This document shows positions 8,825-46,830 of a stretch of 52,515 nucleotides of DNA, piece by piece (position 1 is the first letter of the stretch; every line of letters starts with the position of its first letter). Both the position numbers and the translations under genes were made by a program. The notes beneath the pieces are model-generated. The model worked only from the letters and a program-made list of their open reading frames with translations, was not told where the DNA came from and made no database searches. Origin of the DNA: Saprospiraceae bacterium (GTDB lineage Bacteria > Bacteroidota > Bacteroidia > Chitinophagales > Saprospiraceae); NCBI GenBank assembly GCA_020436935.1, contig JAGQWX010000034.1, positions 1 through 52,515 on the forward strand, in the 5' to 3' direction.

Positions 8825-8921
8825 GGACGCATGCAATGCGTCTCCACAAGTAAAGACGCATTGCATGCGTCTCATGTGCATGTGTCTCATCTGCATGCGT
8901 CTCATCTGCATGCGTCTTACA
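8824..8921. repeat. palindromic pair plus four 15-bp tandem repeats
   Basis: GACGCATGCAATGCGTC (8826-8842) and its exact reverse complement GACGCATTGCATGCGTC (8855-8871) flank a 12-base spacer, and each arm is also nearly self-complementary. From 8862 a 15-base unit TGCATGCGTCTCATC repeats four times (8862, 8877, 8892, 8907) with small changes. The block starts at the ettA stop codon and ends 13 bases before rnpB. Intergenic elements built on GACGC...GCGTC are a familiar class of small dispersed repeats. It may also end ettA transcription. Confidence 0.85.
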
Positions 8922-8934
8922 TGAGTCACAAGAT

Positions 8935-9300
8935 ATCACGGCCTGTCGCTACGACACGAAAGTCGTCGTAGAGGAAAGTCCGGACAACGCAGAGCGCCGC
9001 ACCACCTAACGGGTGGGCTCCCGGTGAGCAATCTAAGGGAGACAGAAAGTGTCACAGAAACTATACCGTCCCTACTAAGTGTAGGGATAAGGGTGAAAAC
9101 GCGGGGTAAGAGCCCACGGTGCTCGTCGGTGACGACGACACGGATAAACCTTGCGGGTTGAAATGCCATGTACATTCCGGCTGATCTTCGGGTCAGAAGG
9201 CTTGCTCGGCCAAGGTCGTAAGACCGCCGGAAGGGGTAGGCAGCTCAGATAAATGACAGGCAGGAGCTTCGGCTCCTCACAGAATCCGGCTTACAGTGAT
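8935..9300 (+). ncRNA. rnpB: RNase P RNA (bacterial class A)
   Basis: This is the catalytic RNA that matures tRNA 5' ends. Its conserved blocks occur in order: GAGGAAAGTCCGGAC (about 8982), ACAGAAA (about 9051), AGGGTGAAAACGCGGGGTAAG (about 9090-9110), AAGGGGTAGGC, CAGATAAATGACAGGC, and ACAGAATCCGGCTTAC near the 3' end. The outer bases ATCAC (8935-8939) and GTGAT (9296-9300) can close stem P1. A strong terminator follows at once. Its length of about 366 nt is usual for type A RNase P RNA. Confidence 0.97.
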
Positions 9301-9304
9301 TTTT

Positions 9305-9344
9305 AAAATGAGCTTCTACATTATCGTAGAGGCTCATTTTTTTT
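9305..9344 (+). terminator. rho-independent terminator of rnpB
   Basis: AAAATGAGCTTCTAC (9305-9319) pairs with GTAGAGGCTCATTTT (9326-9340) around a six-base loop, with T at 9337-9344. Confidence 0.9.
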
Positions 9345-10805: not shown

Positions 10806-13800
10806 TTAAAGTTTCACCAACTTATGAAATTTACTTTGAAGTCTTAATCCAAACGACTCATCCGTGATATTTATTTTATAAAAGTATATGCCCGGGTGGA
10901 GATTGCTCAATGTTGTTCCACCACCTTCACCTTCTGTAATGGTGTCTATAGAACCAGTAAGGGGTTTTTGTATTTTTTTTGAAATGACCAGTGCTCCTGA
11001 AGTGTTGTACACGAATAGTTCTACCAACGCATTCTGACTTACCCTGTCGTGTTCGAAGGCAATGGTGGTATTGTCAATAAATGGATTTGGGTAATTGTAC
11101 ACATTCAATATTTCAGTCAGTTCATTCTCCAAAACAGTAAAGGTGATGGTTTCGACGGCACTGTTGTTGGCGATATCCCAGGCCTTTACTTTGATCTCAT
11201 AATCTCCTGGAAGTAAGTCATTGATTGGAAATAAGACCCTGCCTTTGTTGGGTGAATTTTGATCGGCCTCATAATAATCATTCAAAATGAATGTCTTTTT
11301 CAATGGGCCGGTCATTGTCGCTGTAAGGTCATGACCAATGCTATTGCCGGTGATATTGATTCCGAAATCGTCCTTCAAATCAACGATTAGGATAGGGTTT
11401 GGATGGGTGATGCCTCCATCTTTAAATGCGCGGTTGTTGACGAACAAATCAATTTCCGGCGCCAGTTGATCTTCCACCGAAACTTCACTGTCACCCCCAA
11501 TGAAAGGACCCTCAAAGTTTCCTCCGGCATCTGAATCACTGTCACTTGCATACATGCTGATTTTACCAAGTCCAATGGTGTAATTGATGTCCCTGGGCAT
11601 GGTAAACTCAATGGAAAACTTGCCATTTGTTACCGTGGCAACTCCTTTAAATATGATGTTTTTAAATTCTGAAAACGTGTACTTGAAGCTTCGCGGATCA
11701 TTGGCCAGGGTTTGCCTGTCGGAAGGCTTATCATATACAGAAATGTAAATATTGCCATTGAAATTCTGCAGAAGCATGCCATTTGGGCCAATGATTTCAC
11801 CCTCAATTTTTACAGATTCAAGTGCAGACAAGGTGTCTTCAAAGATGGCTGCATCTGTATTATTGATCTTTGTAACGCTGATCTTATGTTCTGGCAGGCC
11901 AATTTTCTGTGAAGGATCTCCGATCAAAGCAAACTTTCTTGCATTGGCAGATACCGTATCCCGCCCCTGATTGTTTTTTGCCTTCATAATGATGTCTCCC
12001 AGACGCTGAGGAGCCCCATCTTCTTTTTGAAAAATGAAGTCAAAAACAGATGAAGTAAGGCGTTCATTTTCACTCGAATATACACTTCTTACGGTGCTGA
12101 ATAAAGCTATAGCTCCTCCATAAGGCATCAAAATGGCTTCTTCTCCTGTGGTGACAAAATCCGGATTATCGAAGCCGGTCAAGGAACAGGTAGCCGTAAT
12201 AAAAAGCACTGGCTTCTCCCTGTTTTTCCAGTTTTTGATGTCATTGATTTGTAAAACCCTTTCCTGCGAAATCCCTGAAGGGCCGCCATGGCCCAAATAA
12301 CAAATGGCCAAAAGTCCCTTGAATACCTGATTTGAAATATCATCTGTGGCGTCAGGAAAGCGTTGCCCTCCTGGTGTTGTCACCTGTTGATAAGCATCAA
12401 AATAAGTCTTGCGGATATTCATTTGGGGATACAAAGAGGCTACCTTTCTGGCAATTCTGTCGGCCTGAACAATATGGGTATTGCTGTCTTCGTCATCAGC
12501 AGCAAACCCAACAGACAATCGCCAGTCTCCAAATCTGTCTGGATCAGTGTCGTACCTTATGATTTTATTTACCAGTGCATCCGCTTCATTTTTTGATTTT
12601 ACAGGCAATCTTCCGACTGAAATATCAAGTGCTCCGACCAGATTGCCTCCTTCCCCATCGGAAAGCAATGCAAAGTAGTCATCGGTCGGAAACGCAAAAA
12701 CAGGATGGATGGATTCTTGTGTTTCATATACGGGCACATAATCAAAGGTATTGCCGGGCTCAGTGATTTTTCTGTAATCGAATGTGGCATCACCAAATAG
12801 CAGTAAATACTTCAGGTTCTGATCTCGATCATAAACCATTTTTACAAAATCACGAAGTGCTGAGACATCCTGCCTTCCAGAGGAGAACTCATTGTAAACT
12901 TCTGAAATGGGTACGACAACTACATCCAGCTTGTCGAGTTGTTTCCTGTGATCCGCTAGTTTTATGGCAGATTCATACAGTTCATCTGCACAAACCACCA
13001 GCATATCGGCTTTGGTTATGCCATGCAGGTTTTGATTTTTTATTAGACCTATGGGTTCTGGTTCTATGGCATCTTTCAATTTGAATACCAGGTACCTTCC
13101 CAAAACAGATTTTTGCGGGGCTGTAAATTTTCCTGATTCAATGGGCAGGTTTTTTATTTGTGCCAAATGACTTACATCCCAAACCAATAGATCTGTGGTG
13201 CTTCCAATAAAAGTAAAAGCAGAAGTTTTATTGAGACTTTCAGCATCTGAAAATATAAAACTTTTGTCTTTATAAGCCAATGCTGATTTGCCAGTAAGCT
13301 GTATGTAATCCAACCAGGCTTCAGCATTTCCTGAATTGCCGGTGTACGTGACCTTGATGGCCTGAATTTCACTGGCATTTTCTACAATGGTATTGAAAGT
13401 AGCTATCGACAGATAAGAACTTTCAAAATCATCCAATCTTCGATCTGTCAGATTATAGCTGGCATTCACAGATCCGAGGTCCAGTTTTACATTTCCTTTT
13501 TGAGGAGATCTTCCACCAAAGATTCCTCTCACAAAAACGGGTTCATCAGATTTAAAAGCGCTTACATCAAACCTGGACAAGAAGTTTTTTTCTTCCCTGT
13601 CTCTAAAATAATCACCAAACCATTGTCTTCCGGAACCTTGTGTATTGACCTCCCTGGTAAGCACATTGGTCAGGTCTTCATTGTATATTTGAAGCTGATC
13701 ATAACTATTCGAACTATACTCTGCACCACCACTATCAATTTTAAGATCTTCGATATTGGTCCTTGCAGTGCCATCAATGGTTAAAAAGACATAGTTTGCA

Positions 13801-14219
13801 CGGTCATATACATTCAAATTATATTCCCATTGTTTTCCTGAGGGATTGTAGTTCCATTTATTGGGACCTTCAGCATAAAATAAAATTTCATCCCCTGCAT
13901 CGAGGACATTGTTGGCATTATCCCTCACCATAAGAGGTAAATCAATGAGGTCTGATGGTTCGGTCTGGGAAAGTGATTCCGGGAGGTGACCTCCTATATT
14001 GCTGTAAATCTTTACTTTTCTAAGGTCTATTTGTTGGGTTATGCCAAGTTTATCGGTTGTGGCTTTGGTTATTTTAAATATACCGCTCTGAGTGATTTTA
14101 AGTTTATAAAACTTACCAGAGGAAAGTACACTTCGCCCAGGGTGTATTTCCTGGGCATTTGTAGCCAAAGTCAGCGACAAAAACAGAGCAAAACCGATAA
14201 AGATGACGCGATATCTCAA
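10806..14219 (-). CDS. porU: type IX secretion system sortase PorU
   Basis: This gingipain-like C25 cysteine peptidase on the cell surface removes the C-terminal signal of T9SS cargo and attaches the cargo to the envelope. With the start used here it has 1137 residues. It has a signal peptide (RYRVIFIGFALFLSLTLATNAQ), an N-terminal beta region, and the C25 domain with FLFGDATFDYR, catalytic His in YLGHGGPSG (about 643) and Cys in ATCSLTGFDNPD (about 678). It ends with its own CTD-like domain (YPNPF... to FHKLVKL). No ATG exists at the 5' end. The reading frame allows GTG at 14285, but TTG at 14219 places the signal peptide at the N-terminus, so TTG was chosen. It is divergent from porP. Confidence 0.95.
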   Translation of the reverse strand: MRYRVIFIGFALFLSLTLATNAQEIHPGRSVLSSGKFYKLKITQSGIFKITKATTDKLGITQQIDLRKVKIYSNIGGHLPESLSQTEPSDLIDLPLMVRDNANNVLDAGDEILFYAEGPNKWNYNPSGKQWEYNLNVYDRANYVFLTIDGTARTNIEDLKIDSGGAEYSSNSYDQLQIYNEDLTNVLTREVNTQGSGRQWFGDYFRDREEKNFLSRFDVSAFKSDEPVFVRGIFGGRSPQKGNVKLDLGSVNASYNLTDRRLDDFESSYLSIATFNTIVENASEIQAIKVTYTGNSGNAEAWLDYIQLTGKSALAYKDKSFIFSDAESLNKTSAFTFIGSTTDLLVWDVSHLAQIKNLPIESGKFTAPQKSVLGRYLVFKLKDAIEPEPIGLIKNQNLHGITKADMLVVCADELYESAIKLADHRKQLDKLDVVVVPISEVYNEFSSGRQDVSALRDFVKMVYDRDQNLKYLLLFGDATFDYRKITEPGNTFDYVPVYETQESIHPVFAFPTDDYFALLSDGEGGNLVGALDISVGRLPVKSKNEADALVNKIIRYDTDPDRFGDWRLSVGFAADDEDSNTHIVQADRIARKVASLYPQMNIRKTYFDAYQQVTTPGGQRFPDATDDISNQVFKGLLAICYLGHGGPSGISQERVLQINDIKNWKNREKPVLFITATCSLTGFDNPDFVTTGEEAILMPYGGAIALFSTVRSVYSSENERLTSSVFDFIFQKEDGAPQRLGDIIMKAKNNQGRDTVSANARKFALIGDPSQKIGLPEHKISVTKINNTDAAIFEDTLSALESVKIEGEIIGPNGMLLQNFNGNIYISVYDKPSDRQTLANDPRSFKYTFSEFKNIIFKGVATVTNGKFSIEFTMPRDINYTIGLGKISMYASDSDSDAGGNFEGPFIGGDSEVSVEDQLAPEIDLFVNNRAFKDGGITHPNPILIVDLKDDFGINITGNSIGHDLTATMTGPLKKTFILNDYYEADQNSPNKGRVLFPINDLLPGDYEIKVKAWDIANNSAVETITFTVLENELTEILNVYNYPNPFIDNTTIAFEHDRVSQNALVELFVYNTSGALVISKKIQKPLTGSIDTITEGEGGGTTLSNLHPGIYFYKINITDESFGLRLQSKFHKLVKL

Positions 14220-14433
14220 ATTGTAAATATTATTAACATGATCACTGCAATTAACATAACGACCCGATGCTGAAACATCGTGCACCCAATTGGGTTCAAA
14301 GACAAATTAATTGAAAAACTATCAGACCAATACAAAATTTTATCCAACTTGTCCTTTTTAAGACGAAAAAATACACTTTGTAAACTATAAATAATGCATT
14401 TTCGTTGAATGGAAAAGTTTCCGGTAGGACTGT

Positions 14434-32717: not shown

Positions 32718-33839
32718 ATGAGATCAATTCAATTGTTGCGATTTTGCGCAGGCATTACATTCATTTTGATGACAATGCATTGCAAAGACCAAAAACCTGA
32801 GCCAGTGGACGAACAAGTTAAAGATCAAAGTACAGCTCCAAAGCTTGGCATGGAGGAAGCCAACAGGTTGGCAGCGCTTCCATTGCATTGTATAGATGTA
32901 GAATATCCAAATAAACCTGGAGAAACCCTGGCCGGCGCGGATGACATCAAAAGTCCGAAGTCGATGCACCCGGCATTTTATGGCTGTTTCGACTGGCATT
33001 CTTCTGTTCACGGACATTGGTCATTGATCACCCTGCTTAAAGAATTCCCCAATCTTGAGAACAGAGACAGCATTCTGATGAAGCTGCACAGCAACATTAG
33101 TACAGACAATATCGCAAAGGAGGTTGAATATTTTTTGCAGCCTGTCAACACCGGTTATGAGCGGACCTACGGATGGGCCTGGTTGCTCAAGCTTGCACTC
33201 GAGATTCACACCTGGGAAGGAGAAGATGCCAGAAAACTGGAAGCAGCCTTAATGCCCCTTACCGAGCTCATTGTTGACCGGTACAAAAACTTTCTGCCTA
33301 AACTCAACTATCCAATCAGAGTCGGCGAACATACCAATACTGCATTCGGTCTTGCCTTCGCTTATGATTATGCAGAGGTTATCGGCGACACCTCTCTGAC
33401 CAAAGCTATAGAAGAAGCCGCACTTCGATTTTATAAAAACGATGTTGGATGTCCAATGTCTTGGGAGCCGGGAGGGTATGATTTTTTATCCCCATGTCTG
33501 GAAGAAGCAGATCTGATGCGGAGAATTTTGCCGAAAGAAGAATTTGATGGTTGGCTTGATGCATTGATGCCTCAGCTGGCGGATAGTAACTTTAGCTTAG
33601 CACCGGGTCAGGTTTCCGACCGAACAGATGGAAAACTCGTGCATCTGGATGGTGTGAATTTCAGCAGAGCATGGTGCCTTTATGGCCTGTCCCGGACTTC
33701 AGAAAAATATGCCCATTTGCGCAAGATTGCAGACCAACACATCGCATATTCTCTTCCTTCTATCGTAGATGAGAATTACGAGGGCACCCACTGGCTGGGC
33801 AGCTTTGCAATTTATACACTTCAGGAAAGCCGCCTGTAA
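32718..33839 (+). CDS. DUF2891 family secreted protein
   Basis: The 373-residue protein has a hydrophobic leader ending MTMHC (possible lipid anchor at Cys22, though His before Cys is atypical). The all-helical DUF2891 domain fills the rest: MHPAFYGCFDWHSSVHGHWSL (about 75-95), YGWAWLLKLALEIHTW, HTNTAFGLAFAYDYAEV, FLSPCLEEADLMRRIL, LDGVNFSRAWCLYGL. The His/Trp/Asp-lined pattern suggests an alpha/alpha-barrel with a catalytic or sugar-binding pocket, but the family is uncharacterised. It shares its transcript with the Nramp gene, whose ATG lies one base after this stop. Confidence 0.85.
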   Translation: MRSIQLLRFCAGITFILMTMHCKDQKPEPVDEQVKDQSTAPKLGMEEANRLAALPLHCIDVEYPNKPGETLAGADDIKSPKSMHPAFYGCFDWHSSVHGHWSLITLLKEFPNLENRDSILMKLHSNISTDNIAKEVEYFLQPVNTGYERTYGWAWLLKLALEIHTWEGEDARKLEAALMPLTELIVDRYKNFLPKLNYPIRVGEHTNTAFGLAFAYDYAEVIGDTSLTKAIEEAALRFYKNDVGCPMSWEPGGYDFLSPCLEEADLMRRILPKEEFDGWLDALMPQLADSNFSLAPGQVSDRTDGKLVHLDGVNFSRAWCLYGLSRTSEKYAHLRKIADQHIAYSLPSIVDENYEGTHWLGSFAIYTLQESRL

Positions 33840-35108: not shown

Positions 35109-37286
35109 TTATTGTTTGTTAACCTGATCAGCATTTTGCTCTGCCAACTTTACCTCCATTGCTTTGAACTTTTGCTCCATCATGTTTTGCACCAACTCGA
35201 GTTCTTTCTTCAATCTTTCTATCTCCTTGCTCAACTCCTGCGTTGCACTCACGTTGAGCATGGCGATGGCATCGTAGTCCACAATGTGAAAATCATTGAC
35301 CATCTTGCCATATACAAAGAGCTTTTCCGGGGTATTATTGGATGCTATTGTGAATGTATTTTTTTGGTCTGTTGACAACACTTTTACCAAGGTTTCTATG
35401 CCTTTTTCGTTGATGATGCGGACTTCATCGCCAGCTTTTAGCTCGTGGTTTTTGGTGAGTGAAATGCTGATTTGGCCATCTTTGAGCTTTTCTATTTTTG
35501 AGGCTTGCTGCATGATATTGGGAATGACCGATCTGGTCTTTGATACGGCTTCGGGCATGACGGTTTCCAGTTGTTGGGCGATGACCTTGGTTTGCACTGC
35601 ACTGCTTTTTGCGATGGTATCAATGTGGGTATAGCGCGTGATGGTTATGCGATTGAGGCGGTCCAGATCTTCGCGGCCGTTGCTTTGACCAATGATGTTT
35701 TTGATGCGAGCGTCGGAGAAGTTGAAACTCACACTTGAGATGAAAGCTTGGGTTGAACAAATGTTGCCCTCGGTGAGTACGGTCGTTTGACCTGTCCAGT
35801 TGTTTGCGGTTGCAATGCCGGAAAGCTGATAATTAAAGTATTTCATATTGGTAGGACTAGAAGTACTGCTCATGCCGGTAATATGTAAAGGAGCTACAGG
35901 AGTATTTGTACCTATGCCCACGAAACCGTTACCCCCATTGATGGTTACCCTTGAAGTTGCTCCAAAATTACCATCAGCCCGGATATACAGATTTCCTCCT
36001 TTCACATCGATATATCCATTGTTGAAGGCATGATGAAACCTGATGCCATTCTTGCCTTGGCTTGTATTTCCACCTACATATACCGACCTGCCGGTTTTTA
36101 GAACGATATCTTCATCAATCACATTATAGTTGTAATTTTCTACTGGGTCGAAATTCCAAAAATCATTTAAAAAGTCTCCAGACTGGCTACGACCTGTTCC
36201 CACATAAGCTCTTCCATCAATTGCAAAAGCACTGGCTGACCTTCTTGCTGACCCTTCGAAGTCACTTATCCTTGCCCAAGAGTTATTTATAGGATTGTAC
36301 TCCCAAAAATCTTTCTTATATTCCTGTAAATAGTTCCCCAGACCAACGAGTCCTTTATTTTCTAATGAAAGACCTACTGCATCATATCTAAAACCTACAT
36401 TTGAGAGGTTAGCTTTTTCAGTCCAGGAATTACTTACAGGGTCAAATTCATGGAAATCAACGAAACTTGTCATATTGTTCGAACCCAAGCCAACATACCC
36501 TTTGGTGCCGATTGAAAAACCAATTGCACCAGAGCGGCCAGAAATAAAGTCTGCTTTTTGCGTCCATGTATCATTTGAAGGATCATATTCCCAGAAGTCG
36601 ATAGCAAATGTAGAGTTTTCATGACCCAAGCCAATATATCCTTTATCACCAATGGCAAAGCCTACAGCTTCAGATCTTGCAGTTCCCCCGAAGTTTGCTT
36701 TTTGTGTCCATGTATTGATTGTTGGATCGTATTCCCAAAAGTCTTTACGTACATTAGGCCCTTCATCGCCTGTTCCAACATAACCTTTATTCCCAATAGC
36801 AAAGCCTATTGCTGATGACCTATCGTTTCCACCAAAGTCAGCTTTTTGTGTCCATATATCATTTGAAGTATCGTATTCCCAAAAGTCTCTGCAAGCGTTA
36901 TTCACATTAATCCCAGTTCCAATGTATCCTTTATTACCAATGGCAAAGCCGACAGCTTCAAATCTTGCGGCTCCCCCAAAATTTGCTTTTTGAGCCCATC
37001 CTACGTTTGTGATCTCAGGAAGAAAGCCACAATTCTGAACCCAAATATTGTCAACAAAAGTATAAATACACTTATCCTCGAGTCCCATGACCATCAAGCC
37101 CTGTGCGGGATTTGCAATCGCATCCCGCTGTTCTTTGGTCATCCTGGGCAAAAGCAAGCCTTTGCTGGTGGAAGAAATGTCTAGTACTGCCGTGGTATCG
37201 GGTGTGGTGGTACCTATGCCGACAGATTGGGCGTATGTCGAAATGTAACCAAGAAGTAATATGACGAGACATATAAGTTTTTTCAT
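35109..37286 (-). CDS. secreted Kelch-propeller protein with S74 chaperone domain, copy 1
   Basis: The 725 residues have a signal peptide (1-19, ending TYAQ) and the opening [35 protein letters not shown]. Six Kelch-like blades of about 47 residues follow (W.QKA.F...[14 protein letters not shown]....DFWEYDP; about 97-380). A fibre-like neck leads to an S74-type intramolecular chaperone region containing FSDARIKN (about 522-529) with the Ser-x4-Lys dyad. A coiled coil near 680-715 ends the protein. It has no T9SS CTD. It is last of three tandem paralogues, 8 bases after copy 2. The S74 domain suggests trimeric fibre assembly with autocleavage, known from phage tail fibres; application here is inference. 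Confidence 0.85.
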
Positions 37287-37294
37287 TTGACAGG

Positions 37295-39445
37295 CTAATT
37301 GCTTTTTACAAAAAATTTGGATTGAAGCATTTGATGTATTTCACGCACTTCTATGCGTTGATTTTCAAGCTCTTTTTTCAATCTTTCTACCTCCTTGCTC
37401 AACTCCTGCGTAGCACTCACGTTGAGCATGGCGATGGCGTCGTAGTCCACGATATGAAAATCATCGACCATCTTGCCATAAACAAAGAGCTTTTCCGGGG
37501 TATTATTGGATGACACTGTGAATGTATTTTTTTGGTCTGTTGACAACACTTTTACCAAGGTTTCTATGCCTTTTTCGTTGATGATGCGGACTTCATCGCC
37601 AGCTATTAGCTCGTGTTTTTTGGTGAGGGAAATGCTGATTTGGCCATCATTGACCTTTTCTATTTTTGAGGCTTGCTGCATGATATTGGGAATGACCGAT
37701 CTGGTCTTTGAAACTGCTTCGGGCATGACGGTTTCCAGTTGTTGGGCGATGACCTTGGTTTGCACTGCACTGCTTTTTGCGATGGTATCAATGTGGGTAT
37801 AGCGCGTGATGGTTATGCGATTGAGGCGATCCAGATCTTCGCGGCCGTTGCTTTGCCCAATGATGTTTTTGATGCGAGCGTCGGAGAAATTGAAACTTGA
37901 GGCAGAGATGAAAGCTTGGGTGGAACAAATGTTGCCTTCGGCGAGCAAGGTCGTTTCACCTGTCCAGTTGTTTCCGGATGCAATGCCGGAAACCGAATGA
38001 TTAAAGTATTTCATATTGGTAGGACTAGTTGTACGACTCATACCGATTATATGTAAAGGAGCTACAGGAGTATTTGTACCTATGCCAACGAAACCGGTAC
38101 TGCTATTGATGGCTATCCTTGAAGTTGCTCCAAAATTACTATCAGCCCGGATAAACAGATTTCCTCCTTTCACATCGATATATCCATTGTTGAAGGCATG
38201 ATGGAGTCTGATGCCATTCTTGCCTTGGCTTGTATTTCCACCTACATATACCGACCTCCCGGTTTTTAGAATGATATCTTCATCAATCACATTATAGTTA
38301 TAAATTTCCAGTGGGTCGAATTTCCAAAAATCATTTACAAAGCCTTCCGACTGGTTGTAACCTGTACCCACATAAGCTTTTCCATCAATTACAAAAGCAC
38401 TGGCAGCCCTTCTTGCAGACCCTTCGAAGTCAATTGTCTTAGACCAGGTGTCATTTAAAGGATGGTACTCCCAGAAATCTTTATTATATGCTGGAGAAAT
38501 TCCAAGACCAACAAAGCCAATATTTTCTGCTGAAAGGCCAACCGCTTGAATTCTCCTGCTTCCTGCGTAATCAGCTTTTTGCATCCAGGAATTACTTTGA
38601 GGGTCAAATTCATAGAAATCCTTGAAAAATTCATTGTTGGTTTCACCCAAGCCAACATATCCTTTGGCACCGATTGAAAAACCAATTGCAGAAGAGCGGC
38701 CAGAAATAAAGTTTGCTTTTTGCGTCCAGGTATCATTTGAAGGATCATATTCCCAGAAGTCATCAAGATCAGAATTGTAGTAACCCAAACCAACATATCC
38801 TTTATCACCAATGGCAAAGCCGACAGCTTCATACCTTGCCATTCTTCCGACGTCTGCTTTTTGAACCCAGGTGTTGGTTGTTGGATCGTATTCCCAGAAG
38901 TCTTTATATTTACTGCCCTCAATATAGCCTGTTCCAACATATCCTTTATTCCCAATGGCAAAGCCTATTGCTGATGTCCTATCGTTTCCGCCAAAGTCAG
39001 CTATTTGCGTCCAGGTATTGTTTGAAGGATCATACTCCCAGAAGTCTCTGAAAAATGAGCTCAAATTTGTGCCTGTTCCAAAATATCCTTTATTTCCGAT
39101 TGAAAAGGCTACGGCATTTTCCCTGGCAACTCCTGCAAAATTTGCTTTTTGAGACCATGCTCCGTTGATGATTTCAGGAGTAAAACCACAATTTTGAATC
39201 CAAATATTGTCTACAAAGGTATAAATACACTTATCCTCGATCCCCATGACCATCAAGCCCTGTGCTGGATTTGCAATCGCTTCCCGTTGTTCCTTCGTCA
39301 TTCTGGGCAAAAGCAAGCCTTTGATGGTGGAAGAAATGTCCAAAACGGCGGTGGTATCGGGTGTGGTAGTGCCTATGCCGACCGATTGACTGTATACCAA
39401 AATTTGACCAAGAAGTAATATGACGAGGCATGTATATTTTTTCAT
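37295..39445 (-). CDS. secreted Kelch-propeller protein with S74 chaperone domain, copy 2
   Basis: The 716 residues have the same architecture as copies 1 and 3: signal peptide (1-19, LVYSQ), SVGIGTTTP head, six blades, neck, the S74-like FSDARIKN near 520, and a C-terminal coiled coil ending SKFFVKSN. The tail from the neck onward is almost identical to the other copies. The propeller blades differ mainly in the loops between the GTG and DFWEYDP strands. The short gap to copy 1 repeats the gap before this gene nearly base for base, so the duplication unit included the intergenic spacer. Confidence 0.85.
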
Positions 39446-39453
39446 TTGACAGG

Positions 39454-41880
39454 CTAATTGTTTTTTACAAAATATTTGGATTCAATAATTTGAAGTCTTT
39501 GATTCATTTCCGCGCGTTGATGTTCAAGCGCTGATTTCAATTGCTCTATTTCCATTTTCATACTAAGTGTTTCATATTGCTGGACCTCTCTTTCTTTTAT
39601 TAGCTTATCCACCTCCTTGCTCAACTCCTGCGTGGCACTCACGTTGAGCATGGCGATGGCGTCATAGTCCACGATGTGAAAATCATCGACCATCTTGCCA
39701 TAAACAAAGAGCTTTTCAGGGGTATTATTGGATGCCACTTTGAATGTATTTTTTTGGTCTGTTGACAACACTTTTACCAAGGTTTCAATGCCTTTTTCGT
39801 TGATGATGCGGACTTCATCGCCAGCTTTTAGCTCGTGGTTTTTGGTAAGTGAAATGCTGATTTCGCCGTCGCTTAGCTTTTCTATTTTTAAGGCTTGCTG
39901 CATGATATTGGGAATGACCGATCTGGTCTTTGACACGGCTTCGGGCATGACCGTTTCCAGTTGTTGGGCGATGACCTTGGTATGCACCGCACTGCTTTTT
40001 GCTATGGTATCAATGTGGGTATAGCGTGTGATGGTTATGCGATTGAGGCGCTCCAGATCTTCGCGGCCGTTGCTTTGGCCAATGATGTTTTTGATGCGGG
40101 CGTCGGAGAAGTTGAAACTCGCACTTGAGATGAAAGCTTGGGTCGAATAAATGTTGCCTTCGGCGAGTATGGTCGTTTCACCAATCCAGTTGTTTCCGGA
40201 TGTAATGCCGGAAACCGAATGATTAAAGTATTTCATATTGGTAGGACTAGAAGTATTGCTCATGCCGGTAATATGTAAAGGAGCTACAGGAGTATTTGTA
40301 CCTATGCCCACGAAACCGTTAACCCCATTGATGGCTATCCTTGAAGTTGCTCCCAAATTGAAATCAGCCCGGATAAACAGATTCCCTCCTTTCACATCGA
40401 TATATCCATTGTCTAAGGCATGATGAAACCTGATGCCATTCTTCCCTTGGCTTGTATTTCCACCGACATATACCGACCTCCCGGTTTTTAGAATGATATC
40501 TTCATCAATCACATTATAGTTGTAAATATCCTGAGGGTCGAATTTCCAAAAATCATTCAAATAGCCCGACGGGCTGTTACTGTAACCTGTACCCACATAA
40601 ACTTTTCCATCAATTGCAAAAGCACTGGCAGATGACCTTGCAGACCCTTCGAAGTCTGTTTTTTGTGACCAGGTATCGTTTAATGGATTGTACTCCCAGA
40701 AATCTTTATTATATACTCCCCCAAAGTTTCCCAGACCTACCAATCCTATATTTTCCGTTGAGAGGCCAACTGCCCTTGTTCTCAAACCTCCTCCAAAATC
40801 AGCTTTTTGAGTCCAGGAATTACTTTGAGGTTCAAATTGATAGAAATCCTTGAAAAATTGGCCTGAGGCGAAACCCAAGCCAACATATCCTTTGGCTCCG
40901 ATTGAAAAACCAATTGTTCCTATGCGGCCACCAACAAAGTTTGCTTTTTGCGTCCATGTATCATTTGAAGGATCATATTCCCAGAAGTCATCAAGTTCCG
41001 AGATGTTGTAACCCAAACCAACATATCCTTTATCTCCAATGGCAAAGCCGACAGCTTCATACCTTTCCATTCCCCCTACATCAGCTTTTTGTGTCCAGGT
41101 ATTGATGTTTGGATCGTATTCCCAGAAGTCTTTATATTTAATACCCTGATTATAGCCTGTTCCAACATATCCTTTATTCCCAATGGCAAAGCCTATTGTT
41201 AATGTCCTATTGTTTCCGCCAAAGTCAGCTTTTTGCGTCCATGTATCATTTGAAGCATCGTATTCCCAAAAGTCTGTGAAGTAGATTGAATTTCCATTTC
41301 CAGTTCCCATGTATCCTTTATTTCCGATTGAAAAGGCTGCAGCATTTTGCCTTGCAACTGCAAAATTTGCTTTTTGAGACCATGCTCCGTGTATGATTTC
41401 AGGAGCAAAACCGCAATTCTGAACCCAAATGTTGTCAACATGCGTATAAATACACTTATCCTCGAGCCCCATAACCATCAAGCCTTGTGCGGGATCTGCA
41501 ATTGCTTCCCGCTGTTCTTTGGTCATTCTGGGCAAAAGCAAGCCTTTGTTGGTGGAAGAAATGTCCAAAACGGCGGTGGTATCGGGTGTCGTGGTGCCTA
41601 TGCCTACTGATTGGGCATATATACTTATCGGAAATAGATTTGCCCACATAATCATTGTCAAAAATGCAAATATCTTCGTTTGAAAGCCTCGCCGGAGGTA
41701 CCACTCCGGCTGTGTTTTCTGCCTCGATCTTTGCATTTTTGCCTTCATGTTTAAAATGGACCATCCATTTTCCGATAAGTATGTGTGTAGCCATGGCATC
41801 ATCGCAAAAGCAAATAACATCAGTACGCAATAAGGCGCTGATCCAGGCTTGATAATTGTATTTTTATGAGTTGAACACAT
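39454..41880 (-). CDS. secreted Kelch-propeller protein with S74 chaperone domain, copy 3, N-terminally extended
   Basis: The 808-residue protein has six blades, a neck, FSDARIKN near 592, and an enlarged C-terminal coiled coil (about 730-800, KEREVQQYETLSMKMEIEQLKSALEHQRAE). Unlike its siblings it has about 90 residues before SVGIGTTTP. These include a hydrophobic segment near 19-36 and a second one (FLTMIMWANLFPISIYAQ) that is the true export signal. Met44 or Met48 are alternative starts. The ATG at 41880 lies 9 bases after the LytTR stop, which favours translation as part of that operon. It is the promoter-proximal copy and probably the parental one. Confidence 0.82.
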   Translation of the reverse strand: MCSTHKNTIIKPGSAPYCVLMLFAFAMMPWLHTYLSENGWSILNMKAKMQRSRQKTQPEWYLRRGFQTKIFAFLTMIMWANLFPISIYAQSVGIGTTTPDTTAVLDISSTNKGLLLPRMTKEQREAIADPAQGLMVMGLEDKCIYTHVDNIWVQNCGFAPEIIHGAWSQKANFAVARQNAAAFSIGNKGYMGTGNGNSIYFTDFWEYDASNDTWTQKADFGGNNRTLTIGFAIGNKGYVGTGYNQGIKYKDFWEYDPNINTWTQKADVGGMERYEAVGFAIGDKGYVGLGYNISELDDFWEYDPSNDTWTQKANFVGGRIGTIGFSIGAKGYVGLGFASGQFFKDFYQFEPQSNSWTQKADFGGGLRTRAVGLSTENIGLVGLGNFGGVYNKDFWEYNPLNDTWSQKTDFEGSARSSASAFAIDGKVYVGTGYSNSPSGYLNDFWKFDPQDIYNYNVIDEDIILKTGRSVYVGGNTSQGKNGIRFHHALDNGYIDVKGGNLFIRADFNLGATSRIAINGVNGFVGIGTNTPVAPLHITGMSNTSSPTNMKYFNHSVSGITSGNNWIGETTILAEGNIYSTQAFISSASFNFSDARIKNIIGQSNGREDLERLNRITITRYTHIDTIAKSSAVHTKVIAQQLETVMPEAVSKTRSVIPNIMQQALKIEKLSDGEISISLTKNHELKAGDEVRIINEKGIETLVKVLSTDQKNTFKVASNNTPEKLFVYGKMVDDFHIVDYDAIAMLNVSATQELSKEVDKLIKEREVQQYETLSMKMEIEQLKSALEHQRAEMNQRLQIIESKYFVKNN

Positions 41881-41889
41881 ATATGGTTT

Positions 41890-42192
41890 TTATTGAATTT
41901 TTTGTAAACTCCTCATTTTGAAAGACCTTGCAATGCTCGCGGATAGGTCATTTTCAAGAAATATCTCTTTGGCACTGCGGTCTATCTTTCTGATGAAATT
42001 TTTATTGATGAGGTAGGAGCGGTGTATCCTGATGAAGTCTTTGCCCTCAAAACAAGACTGCCAGTGTTTCAGTGTTTTGGATGTAAAGAGCCTGCGTCCA
42101 TTGGCGAAATGGATAAAGGAATAGTTGCTCTCTGCTTTGACCATGATGATTTCTGACGCATAGCCGGTTTTTTTAGAAGGAGATAAAGTCAT
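41890..42192 (-). CDS. stand-alone LytTR DNA-binding protein
   Basis: The 100-residue protein is little more than a LytTR domain: IIMVKAESNYSFIHFANGRRLFTSKTLKHWQSCF and FIRIHRSYLINKNFIRKIDRS (about 51-71). There is no receiver domain and no TM helix, so its activity must be controlled by level, by partner or by an unseen ligand. It sits between the DUF4907 gene and the Kelch copies. Three 21-bp repeats upstream of the gene cluster resemble LytTR half-sites, so autoregulation of the operon is plausible. Confidence 0.9.
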   Translation of the reverse strand: MTLSPSKKTGYASEIIMVKAESNYSFIHFANGRRLFTSKTLKHWQSCFEGKDFIRIHRSYLINKNFIRKIDRSAKEIFLENDLSASIARSFKMRSLQKIQ

Positions 42193-42252
42193 GATTCGTT
42201 TATTTTTTGGATAAATTAATGTCTATCGGGCCATTCACTTTTTGTTTGAAAT

Positions 42253-42663
42253 TCATGGTAATTTTATGGCCAATTGCCTGAGTTCCTCTGTACTGATGGT
42301 GGGTGGCACATAGCCTGCTCTTATTTTGCTGATGGCGAAGGCAGCAGTGCGTTCTGCTTCTTCTTTTGTTGAAAAGCCTTTTTTTCCTGCCACAGCCGGA
42401 ATGCTTCTTTGATCGATGACCATTTGCCCGTCCACGAAAATGTAGTAACCATAGCCTTCATCCTGACTAAAGGCAATCATGGAGGTGATTACCGCACGGT
42501 CCATTTTTTTGGCCATTTCCATTCTCTGTTCCTCAAATGCAAGTTTCAAAGAGTCGGTGTTTTCTGTCGAGATCTCTTTGGTTATAGTTTGTTGGGCAAG
42601 TACCATTTTGGGAATCAAAAAAGTCATGATGACTATGATTCGGATAGAAGTTTTAATACGCAT
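42253..42663 (-). CDS. DUF4907 family secreted protein
   Basis: The 136-residue protein (from ATG 42663) has a signal peptide MRIKTSIRIIVIMTFLIPKMVLAQ. The C-terminal part follows DUF4907: GYGYYIFVDGQMVIDQRSIPAVAGKKGFSTKEEAERTAAFAISKIRAG..PPTI. An upstream ATG at 42681 would add six residues (MQNFDA) to the n-region. A near -7 motif (TACCTTTT) just before it would place the transcript start close to 42681, which favours 42663. The family is uncharacterised and periplasmic or surface-exposed. It lies 60 bases upstream of the LytTR gene on the same strand. Confidence 0.8.
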   Translation of the reverse strand: MRIKTSIRIIVIMTFLIPKMVLAQQTITKEISTENTDSLKLAFEEQRMEMAKKMDRAVITSMIAFSQDEGYGYYIFVDGQMVIDQRSIPAVAGKKGFSTKEEAERTAAFAISKIRAGYVPPTISTEELRQLAIKLP

Positions 42664-42817
42664 GGCATCAAAATTTTGCATGTTTTAAAAGGTAAAAAAC
42701 CATTCTAATTTTAGATTGCTATTGAGCACATGCAAGCGTCAGTTTTTGCTCATAGCGCCTGTGCCAATAAACTTTAACCAAAGTTGCACATAAGCTTAGG
42801 CTGCAAGCAAAATCATA

Positions 42818-42880
42818 GGGTTGAAAAAACGGCCATTTGGGTTGAAAAAACGGCCATTTGGGTTGAAAAAACGGCCATAT
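42818..42880. promoter_or_regulatory. three direct 21-bp repeats, putative LytTR operator
   Basis: Three contiguous units start at 42818, 42839 and 42860, each containing GTTGAAAAAACGGCCAT. The first two are identical and the third differs only at the second-to-last base (TTT to TAT). On the minus strand each unit carries GGCCGTTTTTTC. The published LytTR site is a pair of 9-base direct repeats, (T/A)(A/C)(C/A)GTTN(A/G)(T/G), 12 bases apart. That is a 21-base period, and GCCGTTTTT agrees at 7 of 9 positions. The block lies upstream of the DUF4907-LytTR-Kelch cluster. Confidence 0.7.
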
Positions 42881-42915
42881 CTTGATAATTTATTGATATT
42901 TAATCGGTTATGAAT

Positions 42916-45900
42916 TTACAGCGCGTAACCGAATCGCTCCTGGAAAAGCCTGGACATGTATTTGTGGTCGGTATAGCCTACAGCATTTGCAAGCTCTTTG
43001 AGCGTTTTTTCACGGCCTTCTTGTCTGAGCTCCCTCAGTAAATTCATCTGCACTTCAGTGATGAAATTCTTGGGCGTCATACCTATTTCCCTTTGCAAAA
43101 ATCTGCGTAAGTTGCGCTCGCTCATTTGTAGGTGTTCGGCCAGTGTTTCTACGCTGAAGGTAGGGTCTGTCAGATTTGTACGAACAAAGTTTGTGAGCTT
43201 CTCATAGGTTACATGCTCATCATTGACCTCCCCCTCAATTTCATCTTCGACACTTACGGCAGATCTTCGAACTTCATAATTCAGCAGCAGTCTACGCATA
43301 CGCAACAGTAACTCCTTTTTTGAAAATGGCTTGGTGATGTAATCGTCAACGCCAAGTCTGAGCGCAGAAAATTTAGACAGCTCATTGTGTTTTGCTGTGA
43401 GAAAAATGAATGGTAATCTTTTCAGCCTTTCATCTCCTTTAATGTGGTACAACAAGGCCATGCCGTCCATTTCAGGCATCATAATGTCTGAGACGATGAT
43501 GTCGATGTCCTCCGTTTTTTCTAAGACCTCTAGCGCTTCCTTCCCATTGCTTGCTTTTACCAGCTGGTAATGCTCTTTCAGGATCATGCCCAAAAAGGTC
43601 GAAAGATCAGCATTATCCTCCACAATCAAGGCTTTGGCTTTTTTGGTTTGCTCGCCGGTAAAAGTCTCGTAAGGCTGTTCAAGGGTTTCAAAAACTTTTT
43701 CGACTTGAGCAACGGGTACTTTTACGGTAAAATGAGTTCCAAGGTTTTTACCGGAAAGCAGTGCAATCTTACCCCCCATGAGGTCTACATATTCTTTGAC
43801 GATAGACAAGCCAATACCCGATCCACCTGCTGCACTTGCCTGCTCAATCTGGTAAAACTTTTCATAAATTCTTGTCTGGTGTTCTTCCGGAATTCCCGGT
43901 CCGTTATCCTTGATTTCCAGCATCAGCTCATTTGTTGAATACCCGACATCAATCGTGATAATCGACCCACGAGGGCAATATTTCAAACTATTGGCAATGA
44001 GATTTTGCAGGACTTTGCCCATTTTTTTTTCATCAAACAGCAAGACAGTAGTATTTAAGTCCGGACTGCTGACCCTCAAAGTCATTTCCTTTCTTTCGGC
44101 CTCTAATCTGAAGATTTCTACATTGTTGTTTACAAAGTCTTCAATCAAAACCGGCTGATTGTGGACACCCACCTTGCCGTGTTCAAGTCTGTTCAGCTCA
44201 AGCATTTCTTCTACTCTTGCAGAGAGGTGGCCTACGTTTCTGTCGATCATTTGGATGTAAGCATTGGCCTCGGCATCCTCTTGCATTTTACTATCTTTCA
44301 AAACATCCAGCGGGCCCGCAATCAGGGTCAATGGTGTTTTTAATTCATGAGATATATTGTTGTAGAATTGAGTCTTTAATTTATCGAGCTTTGTCAATTC
44401 CTCTGCTTGCTGCTCGATGGTCTCCTTATCCCTCTTCAATTCAAGGGTGCGTTTGTCGACTTCCAGCTCAAGGCGTTCATTTTCAAGTTTTAAATGCCTC
44501 CTCCACCAAAGGAATATGGCAGTGACCGCGCTTAGAAACAGTAAGCTAAACCACCAGCTTTTGTAAAAATAGTCATCGACATGTAAGTTAATTTTTACAA
44601 TATTTGATTCTGTTGTTGTCAGCCCTGTTCTGGCTTTTGCCAACAGTTGATAGGACCCACTTTGAAGATTAATCAAGGAAATATCAGCGTTGTTGCTGTT
44701 GTTGAGCCAAACGGTGCTTTCATTTTCGACCTTGCCAGCAGGTATAATGGCGTAATGGTAAGTCAATTTATCGTCTCTGACCAGCCCGGGGGCAAGGCTT
44801 ATGGTGAGGTTCCTATGATAGGCGTCTAAAGAAATGGAGTATTCTGTGGTCCTGAGGAAATCGAGTGTATCCGTTTTTTCAAGTGCTTTATTGTAATATT
44901 TCAAGGACGAAAGCACAAGTTGCAGGGCGGGTTTATGCAGCGCTACCTTGTTTACATCAATGATGTTGAGTCCTCTTACGGTGCCGATAAACATTCGATT
45001 GTAGACCTTGTCGTAAAAGCCTGAGAGTCGATTGCATTCTACATGGCTCAATAACTTATCATCAATTTTAGACAGTTCCCCAGTATTCAAAGCATAAACA
45101 AAAACACCACTGAAAGTCCCTAGCCAAAACCTATTGCTGTCATCTTTGGTTATGCTTACCAATGGTGCGCCTGTATTTGCCAACTCAATTATTTCATATG
45201 CTTTTGATTTTTTTTCCAGGCGATAAAGTTTGCCGCTGATGCCGCCAAAATACCACAAGTCATCACTGTCCCGTGCCAGGCTCATCACAGTTTCTCCTGT
45301 GAATATAGGTTTTCGGACCTTTTGTAAAGCATCGTATTCATACAAACCGTTTTTACAAGCTATATAGACACTATTTTTACCACTTGCCAACATATGGTGG
45401 GTGTCGTCAAAAGCTTTATCTACAAAATCATCCATTTTCCAAGTGTTTACATCAGCGGTTTTCATACCTAAATCAGCTGAAATTAGGACTAAAGAATCAT
45501 GGAGCATTATAGCTTCTGTCACAATAGCCTGGACATTAAAAGTCTCAATTTTGCCTGGCTTGATTTTGTAAAATTCCGCTTCGCTGCTGGTGAGCGAGGC
45601 ACCATCTTTTGTCCATTCAAAAAGCCTTGGAAAAAAATCACGGCGTTCTAATTTAAAGTCAAGTTTTTGCTTATAGTCGGAAGAGTAAATTCCTCCATTT
45701 TCGGTGGCAACATAAAGCTTGTTGCCAACCTGACGTATTTTCCGAAGACTAGCGGTGATAAATTCATGTTCGACAAAAGCACCTTTAAGCTGTACTTCAA
45801 AAAAATCACTGCTACTCACTATCCAGAATGCTTCCAGGAAATTTTTACCCACTACATTCCGGATGTTGGGAATTTCCAGTTTTAAATCCGATAAATCAAA

Positions 45901-46830
45901 AATGCTTTCATCTTTGGTCACAAGAAAGAGGTGTTGCAAGCGGTATGGGTAGTCGTAAACATAAAGGGTATTTCCAAAATCATCGGCTTTTATTATTCTA
46001 ATAAGATTAGGTATAAAAAGTTGTTTAAAAGGGTTTTGTTGCACTTTGTTATTTCCGTCTATTATGAATGGTTTATCCATATGACTCATGACTTCAAAGC
46101 CCCTGGGTGTCCTGCCTGCAGTAAAAAAATTATAATCATTATCGGTAAGGTCAATCTTTTGCATGAGTGTACCCTTTAAATCCAGGCGAGAAATAGCACT
46201 AAAAGTGCATGCCCAGACGCCATCATCATCTACATCAATGCTACCATAAGCTGCCATATAAGGCGAAGTAAAAAGCTTAGAAAATTGCCCGTCTTTAAAT
46301 CTATACAAGCTTACAGGACCTTTTAGCTCACCCGCAACAAAATAAAATGCGTCTTTGAAAATATTACCATAAAAGACTCGCCCTGTCACTAAATCAGGCA
46401 AGGTTATTTTAGAAAGCCTTATTTGATTTATATCAAAAATAAATAACTTCCTTTCATTTTCTGGCTGATAGATAATTTCTGATTTGTTCAATAAATGACC
46501 AAAGTAATTGCGGTCTATGGACCATCCATCCTGGGCATCGAAGGTGTAGTTTTTGAAACGAACTCCATCAAAACACACCATTTTCAAGCGACTGTCTCCT
46601 TTGAATATTGTTTGATTGCCTCCCAGTAACCAAATGAAGCCGGCGCTGTCGCGTACCATGCTTTTTAAGTTTGGTAGGTTCAGACCGTTTTCAGCACTAT
46701 ATTGTTTGATACTCCAGGTAATGGATTCCTGACCATAGCCTGAGCTGGTTGAGATAAGTAAGAAGTAAAGCAATATGCAATACTTTATTGTGTATGGTAT
46801 TTTTGTTGTTTGGATGTCAATCACATGCAA
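42916..46830 (-). CDS. hybrid two-component sensor/regulator (propeller, HisKA, REC, AraC)
   Basis: The 1304-residue one-protein signalling system sits in the inner membrane. It has a signal peptide (to about 35), a large periplasmic sensor of degenerate propeller repeats (about 40-670), and a Y_Y_Y-like domain (about 675-750, YHYAIIPAG..W..). A TM helix lies near 755-775. HisKA follows with phospho-His about 828 (FYNNISHELKTPLTL), then HATPase (DNGPGIPEEH, GSGIGLSIVKEY). REC carries Asp about 1110 (VSDIMMPEMDG), and an AraC HTH occupies about 1205-1304. No ATG begins the frame: TTG 46830 and GTG 46824 are the candidates. It lies just upstream of the DUF4907-LytTR-Kelch cluster, its likely target. 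Confidence 0.92.
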   Translation of the reverse strand: MHVIDIQTTKIPYTIKYCILLYFLLISTSSGYGQESITWSIKQYSAENGLNLPNLKSMVRDSAGFIWLLGGNQTIFKGDSRLKMVCFDGVRFKNYTFDAQDGWSIDRNYFGHLLNKSEIIYQPENERKLFIFDINQIRLSKITLPDLVTGRVFYGNIFKDAFYFVAGELKGPVSLYRFKDGQFSKLFTSPYMAAYGSIDVDDDGVWACTFSAISRLDLKGTLMQKIDLTDNDYNFFTAGRTPRGFEVMSHMDKPFIIDGNNKVQQNPFKQLFIPNLIRIIKADDFGNTLYVYDYPYRLQHLFLVTKDESIFDLSDLKLEIPNIRNVVGKNFLEAFWIVSSSDFFEVQLKGAFVEHEFITASLRKIRQVGNKLYVATENGGIYSSDYKQKLDFKLERRDFFPRLFEWTKDGASLTSSEAEFYKIKPGKIETFNVQAIVTEAIMLHDSLVLISADLGMKTADVNTWKMDDFVDKAFDDTHHMLASGKNSVYIACKNGLYEYDALQKVRKPIFTGETVMSLARDSDDLWYFGGISGKLYRLEKKSKAYEIIELANTGAPLVSITKDDSNRFWLGTFSGVFVYALNTGELSKIDDKLLSHVECNRLSGFYDKVYNRMFIGTVRGLNIIDVNKVALHKPALQLVLSSLKYYNKALEKTDTLDFLRTTEYSISLDAYHRNLTISLAPGLVRDDKLTYHYAIIPAGKVENESTVWLNNSNNADISLINLQSGSYQLLAKARTGLTTTESNIVKINLHVDDYFYKSWWFSLLFLSAVTAIFLWWRRHLKLENERLELEVDKRTLELKRDKETIEQQAEELTKLDKLKTQFYNNISHELKTPLTLIAGPLDVLKDSKMQEDAEANAYIQMIDRNVGHLSARVEEMLELNRLEHGKVGVHNQPVLIEDFVNNNVEIFRLEAERKEMTLRVSSPDLNTTVLLFDEKKMGKVLQNLIANSLKYCPRGSIITIDVGYSTNELMLEIKDNGPGIPEEHQTRIYEKFYQIEQASAAGGSGIGLSIVKEYVDLMGGKIALLSGKNLGTHFTVKVPVAQVEKVFETLEQPYETFTGEQTKKAKALIVEDNADLSTFLGMILKEHYQLVKASNGKEALEVLEKTEDIDIIVSDIMMPEMDGMALLYHIKGDERLKRLPFIFLTAKHNELSKFSALRLGVDDYITKPFSKKELLLRMRRLLLNYEVRRSAVSVEDEIEGEVNDEHVTYEKLTNFVRTNLTDPTFSVETLAEHLQMSERNLRRFLQREIGMTPKNFITEVQMNLLRELRQEGREKTLKELANAVGYTDHKYMSRLFQERFGYAL

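Follow-up and report, generated by a model that had tools for sequence, protein, structure and literature searches.

A cluster of six genes in contig JAGQWX010000034.1 of a Saprospiraceae bacterium (GCA_020436935.1), whose full 52,515-nt stretch is the window analysed here, codes for a hybrid two-component sensor, a DUF4907 protein, a LytTR DNA-binding protein without a receiver domain and three tandem proteins (Kelch1 to Kelch3) that combine a Kelch propeller with a Peptidase_S74 (S74) domain. The cluster joins three recurrent gene linkages: the sensor with tandem S74 genes, Kelch with DUF4907 (and LytTR), and LytTR with surface-type genes. The complete set, from sensor to Kelch-S74, was found in no other locus examined. 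Since pieces of its arrangement recur in other bacteria, the cluster appears to be a genuine and so far undescribed means of controlling sticky surface proteins. The reading that we favour, to which we give about equal credence for and against, is that of an inducible, self-processed adhesive-fibre locus under the sensor and LytTR, similar to the mosaic adhesive trimer (MAT) fibres of Bdellovibrio. It is favoured because the linkages of Kelch with DUF4907 and of LytTR with both recur, because a relative of the sensor precedes three tandem S74 genes, because stand-alone LytTR genes adjoin surface-type genes, and because the propeller head diverges more than S74, with one hypervariable loop per blade.

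Recurrent Gene Linkages

DUF4907 is present in 5 of 150 genomes of the window's family, with a Kelch gene beside it at all five loci, and an order-wide search gave matches in 62 of 298 genomes. Of 35 DUF4907 loci whose flanks extend to 1.5 kb at most, 30 contain a Kelch open reading frame (ORF). A set of 45 larger loci (the window, four loci of its family and 40 chosen from the order search) places Kelch no more than 1.5 kb from DUF4907 in 39 cases. The family labelled f20 was sampled by 30 loci from 29 of its 34 genomes with a DUF4907 match. Of these 30 loci, 20 have a LytTR gene no further than 6 kb away, and in 17 it is within 1.5 kb of DUF4907, versus 1 of 20 control regions of 13.2 kb taken elsewhere in 19 of these genomes and in one of another family (Fisher p 9e-6; the f20 counts carry no correction for phylogeny and many of the loci are closely related). 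Five f20 LytTRs are short and convergent with DUF4907 (L065, L069, L219, L224, L225). The others have the size of response regulators and some are encoded directly upstream of Kelch (L071, L073, L228). Outside f20, the window excepted, LytTR was found within 6 kb of DUF4907 at none of 14 loci. In the LytTR tree, 17 of the 19 f20 loci included have LytTRs in a single branch, apart from that of the window, which suggests that LytTR control of Kelch-DUF4907 probably arose more than once, by convergence. Such a repeated origin argues for function.

The sensor half was searched for in the 150 family genomes, with up to seven candidates scored per genome. The closest relative among scored candidates (G055:C76, from another genus) reaches 506 bits over the sensor half and is 43% identical to the window sensor over 1275 amino acids (aa). 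Second in score is a paralogue encoded by the window's own genome (159 bits), the remaining candidates scoring at most 87 bits. About 120 bp after the G055 sensor come three slightly overlapping tandem S74 genes, one of them coding an LVIVD propeller (116.6 bits), and then a protein with a type IX secretion system (T9SS) tail. The paralogue (L091) adjoins a gene set with a stand-alone LytTR gene between two similar genes, of which the scanned one has PMP repeats. The window's S74 variant is found at ten loci (L147-L156), eight of them with usable flanks. A sensor gene directly adjoins the fibre gene in four of the eight (L147, L148, L154, L155) and is one gene apart in L149. A T9SS-tailed protein, possibly a surface partner that the window lacks, is encoded after the S74 fibre genes in L147 (13299-14816) and L149 (11144-12529). 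BLAST detected no S74 in 18 more distant loci of the hybrid two-component system (HTCS) type, one of which (L201) contains the HTCS gene only. Several of them adjoin large secreted or T9SS-like proteins, so that the pairing of sensor and surface proteins appears broader in the family. A stand-alone LytTR gene of another genus, in L210 (4467-9107), has an HTCS gene immediately upstream.

Stand-alone LytTR genes were surveyed in six genomes of the window's genus. They yielded 16 candidates, of which 14 are complete (L095 and L096, at contig ends, were dropped). A same-strand neighbour of surface type, that is with Kelch, YadA/S74, FISUMP, PMP, beta-helix or VGIGT-type architecture, is found for 9 of the 14 short LytTRs versus 3 of 22 full-length LytTR regulators (p 0.003), with classes assigned by hand after the neighbours had been seen and with a kinase on one side of the response-regulator controls, which leaves these fewer free sides for surface genes. 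Pfam assignments cover 13 genes next to or near the short LytTRs and 7 control neighbours, the others being judged from protein ends. The FISUMP match in L087 is barely above cut-off; that in L089 is below it, and this locus was counted for its VGIGTTNP start despite an intervening 70-aa ORF. The looser count of any secreted same-strand neighbour gives 12/14 versus 7/22 (p 0.002). The window LytTR falls in the tree among the stand-alone LytTRs of its genus, in a group where four of six are beside Kelch proteins (window, L082, L085, L088), with Kelch upstream in L085 and L088. The reverse link is weaker: S74 gives 22 matches at 18 places in the genus, and a short LytTR stands beside it in 2 of the 15 places with flanks (window, L083).

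Other loci show further arrangements. In L127 (3-1839), from a sister genome of the genus, a LytTR-matching gene of response-regulator size ends 40 nt upstream of an S74 gene. The stand-alone LytTR gene of L089 (4448-9339) precedes a tandem row of four VGIGTTNP proteins with FISUMP-like ends, and the DNA upstream is rich in TTAAC-type repeats. Within the window's own genome, L092 (7784-17500) codes for a surface-type protein, 3239 aa or longer and with a beta-helix match, whose gene starts 70 nt after a stand-alone LytTR gene. The literature search returned no paper pairing LytTR with Saprospiraceae.

The first-pass annotation of this DNA had proposed a single undescribed system and a search for co-occurrence of its genes. 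This interpretation is partly supported. DUF4907-Kelch and LytTR-Kelch-DUF4907 recur against controls, and the sensor is found with three tandem S74 genes in another genus. The whole set did not recur in the loci examined: BLAST found S74 in none of the 44 DUF4907 loci besides the window, and LytTR was found in none of the 20 S74 loci L147-L166, though L083 and L127, outside that set, have one.

Organization of the Locus

The six ORFs are found on the minus strand where the first-pass annotation had placed them (Table 1), and its domain assignments hold. The sensor carries its AraC output in the same chain as the kinase and receiver domains. LytTR (59.2 bits) is the sole Pfam match in its protein, with no receiver match. 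DUF4907 scores 63.1 bits (cut-off 25), and the three tandem proteins match Kelch families far above cut-off as well as Peptidase_S74. The region of the sensor taken as periplasmic stays under threshold for Reg_prop (18.0 bits, cut-off 20.4) and Y_Y_Y (17.4 bits, cut-off 26.6).

Table 1. Coordinates of the cluster features in the window, listed from the sensor downstream.
Feature	Position	Strand	Basis and remarks
Hybrid two-component sensor, HTCS-type	42916..46830	minus	Pfam; 1304 aa; large N-terminal sensor region, HisKA, HATPase_c, receiver (Response_reg), AraC-type helix-turn-helix (HTH_18)
Three exact copies of 21-bp direct repeat, candidate LytTR (or HTCS) binding sites	42818..42878	minus	TRF
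Promoter-like TTTG-21 nt-CAACTTTG	42779..42811	minus	Begins 6 nt after last repeat core
DUF4907 protein	42253..42681	minus	Pfam; AlphaFold2 model; N-terminal signal-like helix
Receiver-less LytTR DNA-binding protein	41890..42192	minus	Pfam, tree; 100 aa
Kelch-S74 fibre protein 3 (Kelch3)	39454..41880	minus	ORF and Pfam; start site uncertain
S74 core of Kelch3, with SDARIK	39934..40107	minus	Motif
Kelch-S74 fibre protein 2 (Kelch2)	37295..39445	minus	ORF and Pfam
S74 core of Kelch2, with SDARIK	37712..37885	minus	Motif
Kelch-S74 fibre protein 1 (Kelch1)	35109..37286	minus	ORF and Pfam; propeller model match
S74 core of Kelch1, with SDARIK	35544..35717	minus	Motif; match to MyRF chain 7dc3_A

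The sensor and DUF4907 genes are spaced by 234 nt, DUF4907 and LytTR by 60 nt, LytTR and Kelch3 by 9 nt, and Kelch3-Kelch2 and Kelch2-Kelch1 by 8 nt each. The short gaps noted previously among the last four genes stand between the Kelch genes. The gap in front of Kelch3 is less sure: this protein has about 70 extra N-terminal residues relative to Kelch1 and Kelch2 and its start is uncertain, so that the gap may really be longer. A consensus scan listed no terminator-like site on the minus strand from the sensor stop to the end of Kelch1, which allows co-transcription from sensor to Kelch1 and does not prove it. On either side of the cluster lie a convergent Nramp transporter gene and a divergent gene for a flavodoxin-fold protein. 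The Nramp ORF overlaps an upstream DUF2891 ORF by 71 nt (33769-33839) and its start is probably later. Elsewhere in the window, a C25-family peptidase (10806-14285) carries a T9SS sorting domain slightly above cut-off.

The DUF4907 protein is modelled as a small beta-beta-beta-alpha domain (pLDDT 95-98 in the core blocks) preceded by a single N-terminal hydrophobic, signal-like helix, and looks exported. Its alignment comprises the window and 28 of 34 loci (at four no ORF was picked and at two the ORF picked was on the wrong strand).

The Kelch-S74 Proteins

The three proteins share a signal-like start, a VGIGT-type N-terminal stretch (about 70-75 aa between signal and propeller), six Kelch blades, a beta-rich stalk, S74 and a helical tail. 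The propeller in the Kelch1 model resembles Kelch domains of solved structure (TMt up to 0.90); this is a monomer model with a mean pLDDT of 75.5 over the whole chain, low in the stalk. The catalytic motif SDxxxK is present in all three as SDARIK, its serine being S524 in Kelch1, and self-cleavage is predicted. The S74 region matches MyRF chain 7dc3_A (E 1.1e-6) in two stretches separated by about 63 residues (query 88-150) that 7dc3 lacks and that the model shows as beta-rich. Both copies scanned against PHROGs match tail fibres.

Divergence among the three copies differs along the protein. The propellers are 67-77% identical (dS 0.41-0.47, dN 0.15-0.24) and the S74 cores 93-96% (dS 0.15-0.23, dN 0.03-0.04). 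The dS is 0.08-0.18 in the stalk and 0.45-0.66 in the N-terminal stretch, and the tails are only 37-52% identical. Homogenisation of the stalk and S74 part is suggested by its lower dS. The loop from GxG to DFW is hypervariable in every blade (24% identity over all six). Outside it, blades 2, 3, 4 and 6 are 77-89% identical, and blades 1 and 5 give 38% and 30% by a simple ungapped count in which they are out of register. A varied binding face would be expected to show this pattern of a single hypervariable loop in each blade.

The 21-bp Repeats and the Promoter-like Site

The operator-like repeats reported by the first-pass annotation consist of an exact 21-bp unit in 2.9 copies with 100% matches, a result reached by none of 100 dinucleotide shuffles. 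On the minus strand, their 17-base cores begin at 42876, 42855 and 42834. Among eight spacing classes tried over the 234-nt region, 20-23 bp alone is significant, and the paired repeat motif has no exact match elsewhere in the genome. The promoter-like site is close to the Bacteroidota -33/-7 promoter pattern. Such a match is found in 5 of 1000 shuffles when its position is restricted, to a position window chosen after the match was seen, and in 155 of 1000 when unrestricted. Published autoregulated LytTR operons have direct repeats just upstream of the promoter, the Bacteroides examples being 11-bp repeats separated by 11 bp, according to the account in PMC6193735. LytTR probably acts at the 21-bp repeats, as their spacing and their place 6 nt upstream of the promoter-like site resemble these operons.

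Two further tandem arrays are present in the window: one of a 41-bp unit (6.9 copies, 90% matches) at the contig end (1-283), and one of a 15-bp unit (8862-8917) directly beside the class A RNase P RNA gene (8930-9309).

Proposed Mechanism and Alternative Explanations

The hybrid sensor would detect a signal in the envelope or outside the cell and, through its AraC output, turn on the genes below it. LytTR, made from the same transcript, would bind the 21-bp repeats that closely precede the promoter-like site and reinforce its own operon, so that the locus would behave as an on/off switch. Kelch1 to Kelch3, once exported, would trimerise through beta stalk and S74, which would then cut itself off and leave the fibres. 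The loops of the propeller heads, six in each and different from copy to copy, would be the ligand-binding parts. DUF4907 may be an envelope partner of the Kelch protein, acting in folding, in anchoring or in relaying occupancy to the regulators; it is the weakest step of the mechanism.

Several observations weigh against this reading. The DUF4907 model has no confident match in the Protein Data Bank (PDB) and no fold match that hints at function. The four other DUF4907-Kelch loci of the same family show no LytTR on the DNA available (some flanks end at contig ends), and the sensor-S74 loci of G055, G022 and G119 show no LytTR, DUF4907 or Kelch by BLAST. The S74 scores of the three proteins (27.2, 26.9 and 28.5 bits) lie just barely above the cut-off of 22, and Pfam finds no T9SS sorting domain in them. 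The 21-bp repeat agrees with the LytTR consensus at only 7 of 9 positions, and sequences outside it fit better. Repeats spaced 20-23 bp apart are significant upstream of only 3 of 12 short-LytTR operons, two of which show other spacings too.

The sensor might control the fibres alone, with LytTR acting elsewhere and the 21-bp array being the AraC-type operator of the sensor or a slippage repeat. Sensor and tandem S74 genes do occur without LytTR in G055, tandem arrays exist elsewhere in the window, and repeats are not general among short-LytTR operons. This explanation appears rather unlikely to us, given that LytTRs of two branches take part in the LytTR-Kelch-DUF4907 linkage, that stand-alone LytTRs are enriched beside surface-type genes and that no other spacing class tried is significant in the window.

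The nature of the Kelch-S74 products can also be viewed differently, as periplasmic or secreted sugar-processing or scaffold proteins with NanM-like propellers. Pfam NANM is slightly above its cut-off of 45 in all three (48.1, 52.7 and 45.5 bits), and the lack of a T9SS tail suits this alternative; the likeness to the NCBIfam mutarotase and NanM models is sub-threshold, at only about 10-28% of the curated cut-offs. We regard it as quite improbable, because differences between the copies cluster in a single loop of each blade, as suits a binding face, and because S74, stalk, coiled-coil-like tail and the PHROGs matches suit fibres. Finally, a mobile S74 gene family could have landed by chance between unrelated regulators, for which the lack of the complete set at any other locus examined might be invoked. 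As each link recurs against controls, such a chance neighbourhood is already disfavoured and seems very unlikely.

A broader version of the adhesive-fibre reading, offered tentatively and more probably wrong than right, treats the LytTR-Kelch-DUF4907 combination as a regulated module for surface recognition, so far undescribed and shared by two or more families of the order, with DUF4907 telling the regulators whether the propeller is occupied or assembled. The window's locus would be a merger of this module with a sensor-S74 locus into self-processing inducible fibres with swappable six-loop heads for prey, hosts or glycans. The cluster would bring together three orphan observations (DUF4907, the receiver-less LytTR and phage-like self-cleaving fibres) as one testable system of how Bacteroidota-type bacteria switch on and vary recognition fibres. 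DUF4907 is named in no paper of the literature searched, and its conserved Kelch partner therefore offers an initial way to study it. A homogenised scaffold bearing hypervariable loops also lends itself naturally to display.

Comparison with Known Systems

The HTCS of Bacteroidota polysaccharide loci carry sensor, kinase, receiver and AraC output in one chain. The window sensor has the same domains in a single chain, but its neighbours are the DUF4907, LytTR, fibre and flavodoxin-fold genes rather than SusC/SusD. The S74 domains share the SD-x-R-x-K motif with the MyRF ICA domain and the phage endosialidase S74, in addition to the sequence match to 7dc3_A, and differ from MyRF by the modelled beta-rich insert and a bacterial export signal. 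The window shares the Kelch and DUF4907 gene pair of the order and differs by its S74 domains, which BLAST found at none of the 44 other loci. The window resembles LytTR regulatory systems (LRS), as presented in PMC6193735, by a soluble LytTR and direct repeats just upstream of a promoter-like site. It is unlike them in that LytTR neighbours DUF4907 and fibre genes and that no gene for a multi-pass membrane inhibitor is beside it, judged without a transmembrane predictor.

The nearest studied proteins are the MAT fibres, set here beside the Kelch proteins by description from the main text of PMC10769870. They are found on the surface of the predator; one self-cleaves at the serine of SDxxxK and another binds prey glycans. 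In MAT proteins the signal peptide is followed by a conserved beta-rich domain of about 130 aa, whereas the Kelch proteins have about 70-75 aa between signal and propeller. The MAT capping-loop motif is printed as V-G-G/N-x-x-x-P-x-x-x-L. All three Kelch proteins have a similar motif, in which G-x3-P-x3-L fits and one more residue stands between VG and G. Both groups have a signal peptide (predicted in the Kelch proteins) and, in one MAT subgroup, an S74 carboxyl terminus with SDxxxK, as well as a conserved end, a diversified head and several copies per genome; VGxG-type capping motifs may be a further common trait. MAT proteins were seen on the cell surface, a location that is predicted for the Kelch proteins. 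The word propeller is absent from that main text, and the Kelch proteins differ from MAT by the Kelch head inserted between N-terminal domain and stalk and by their tandem copies in one cluster with HTCS, LytTR and DUF4907.

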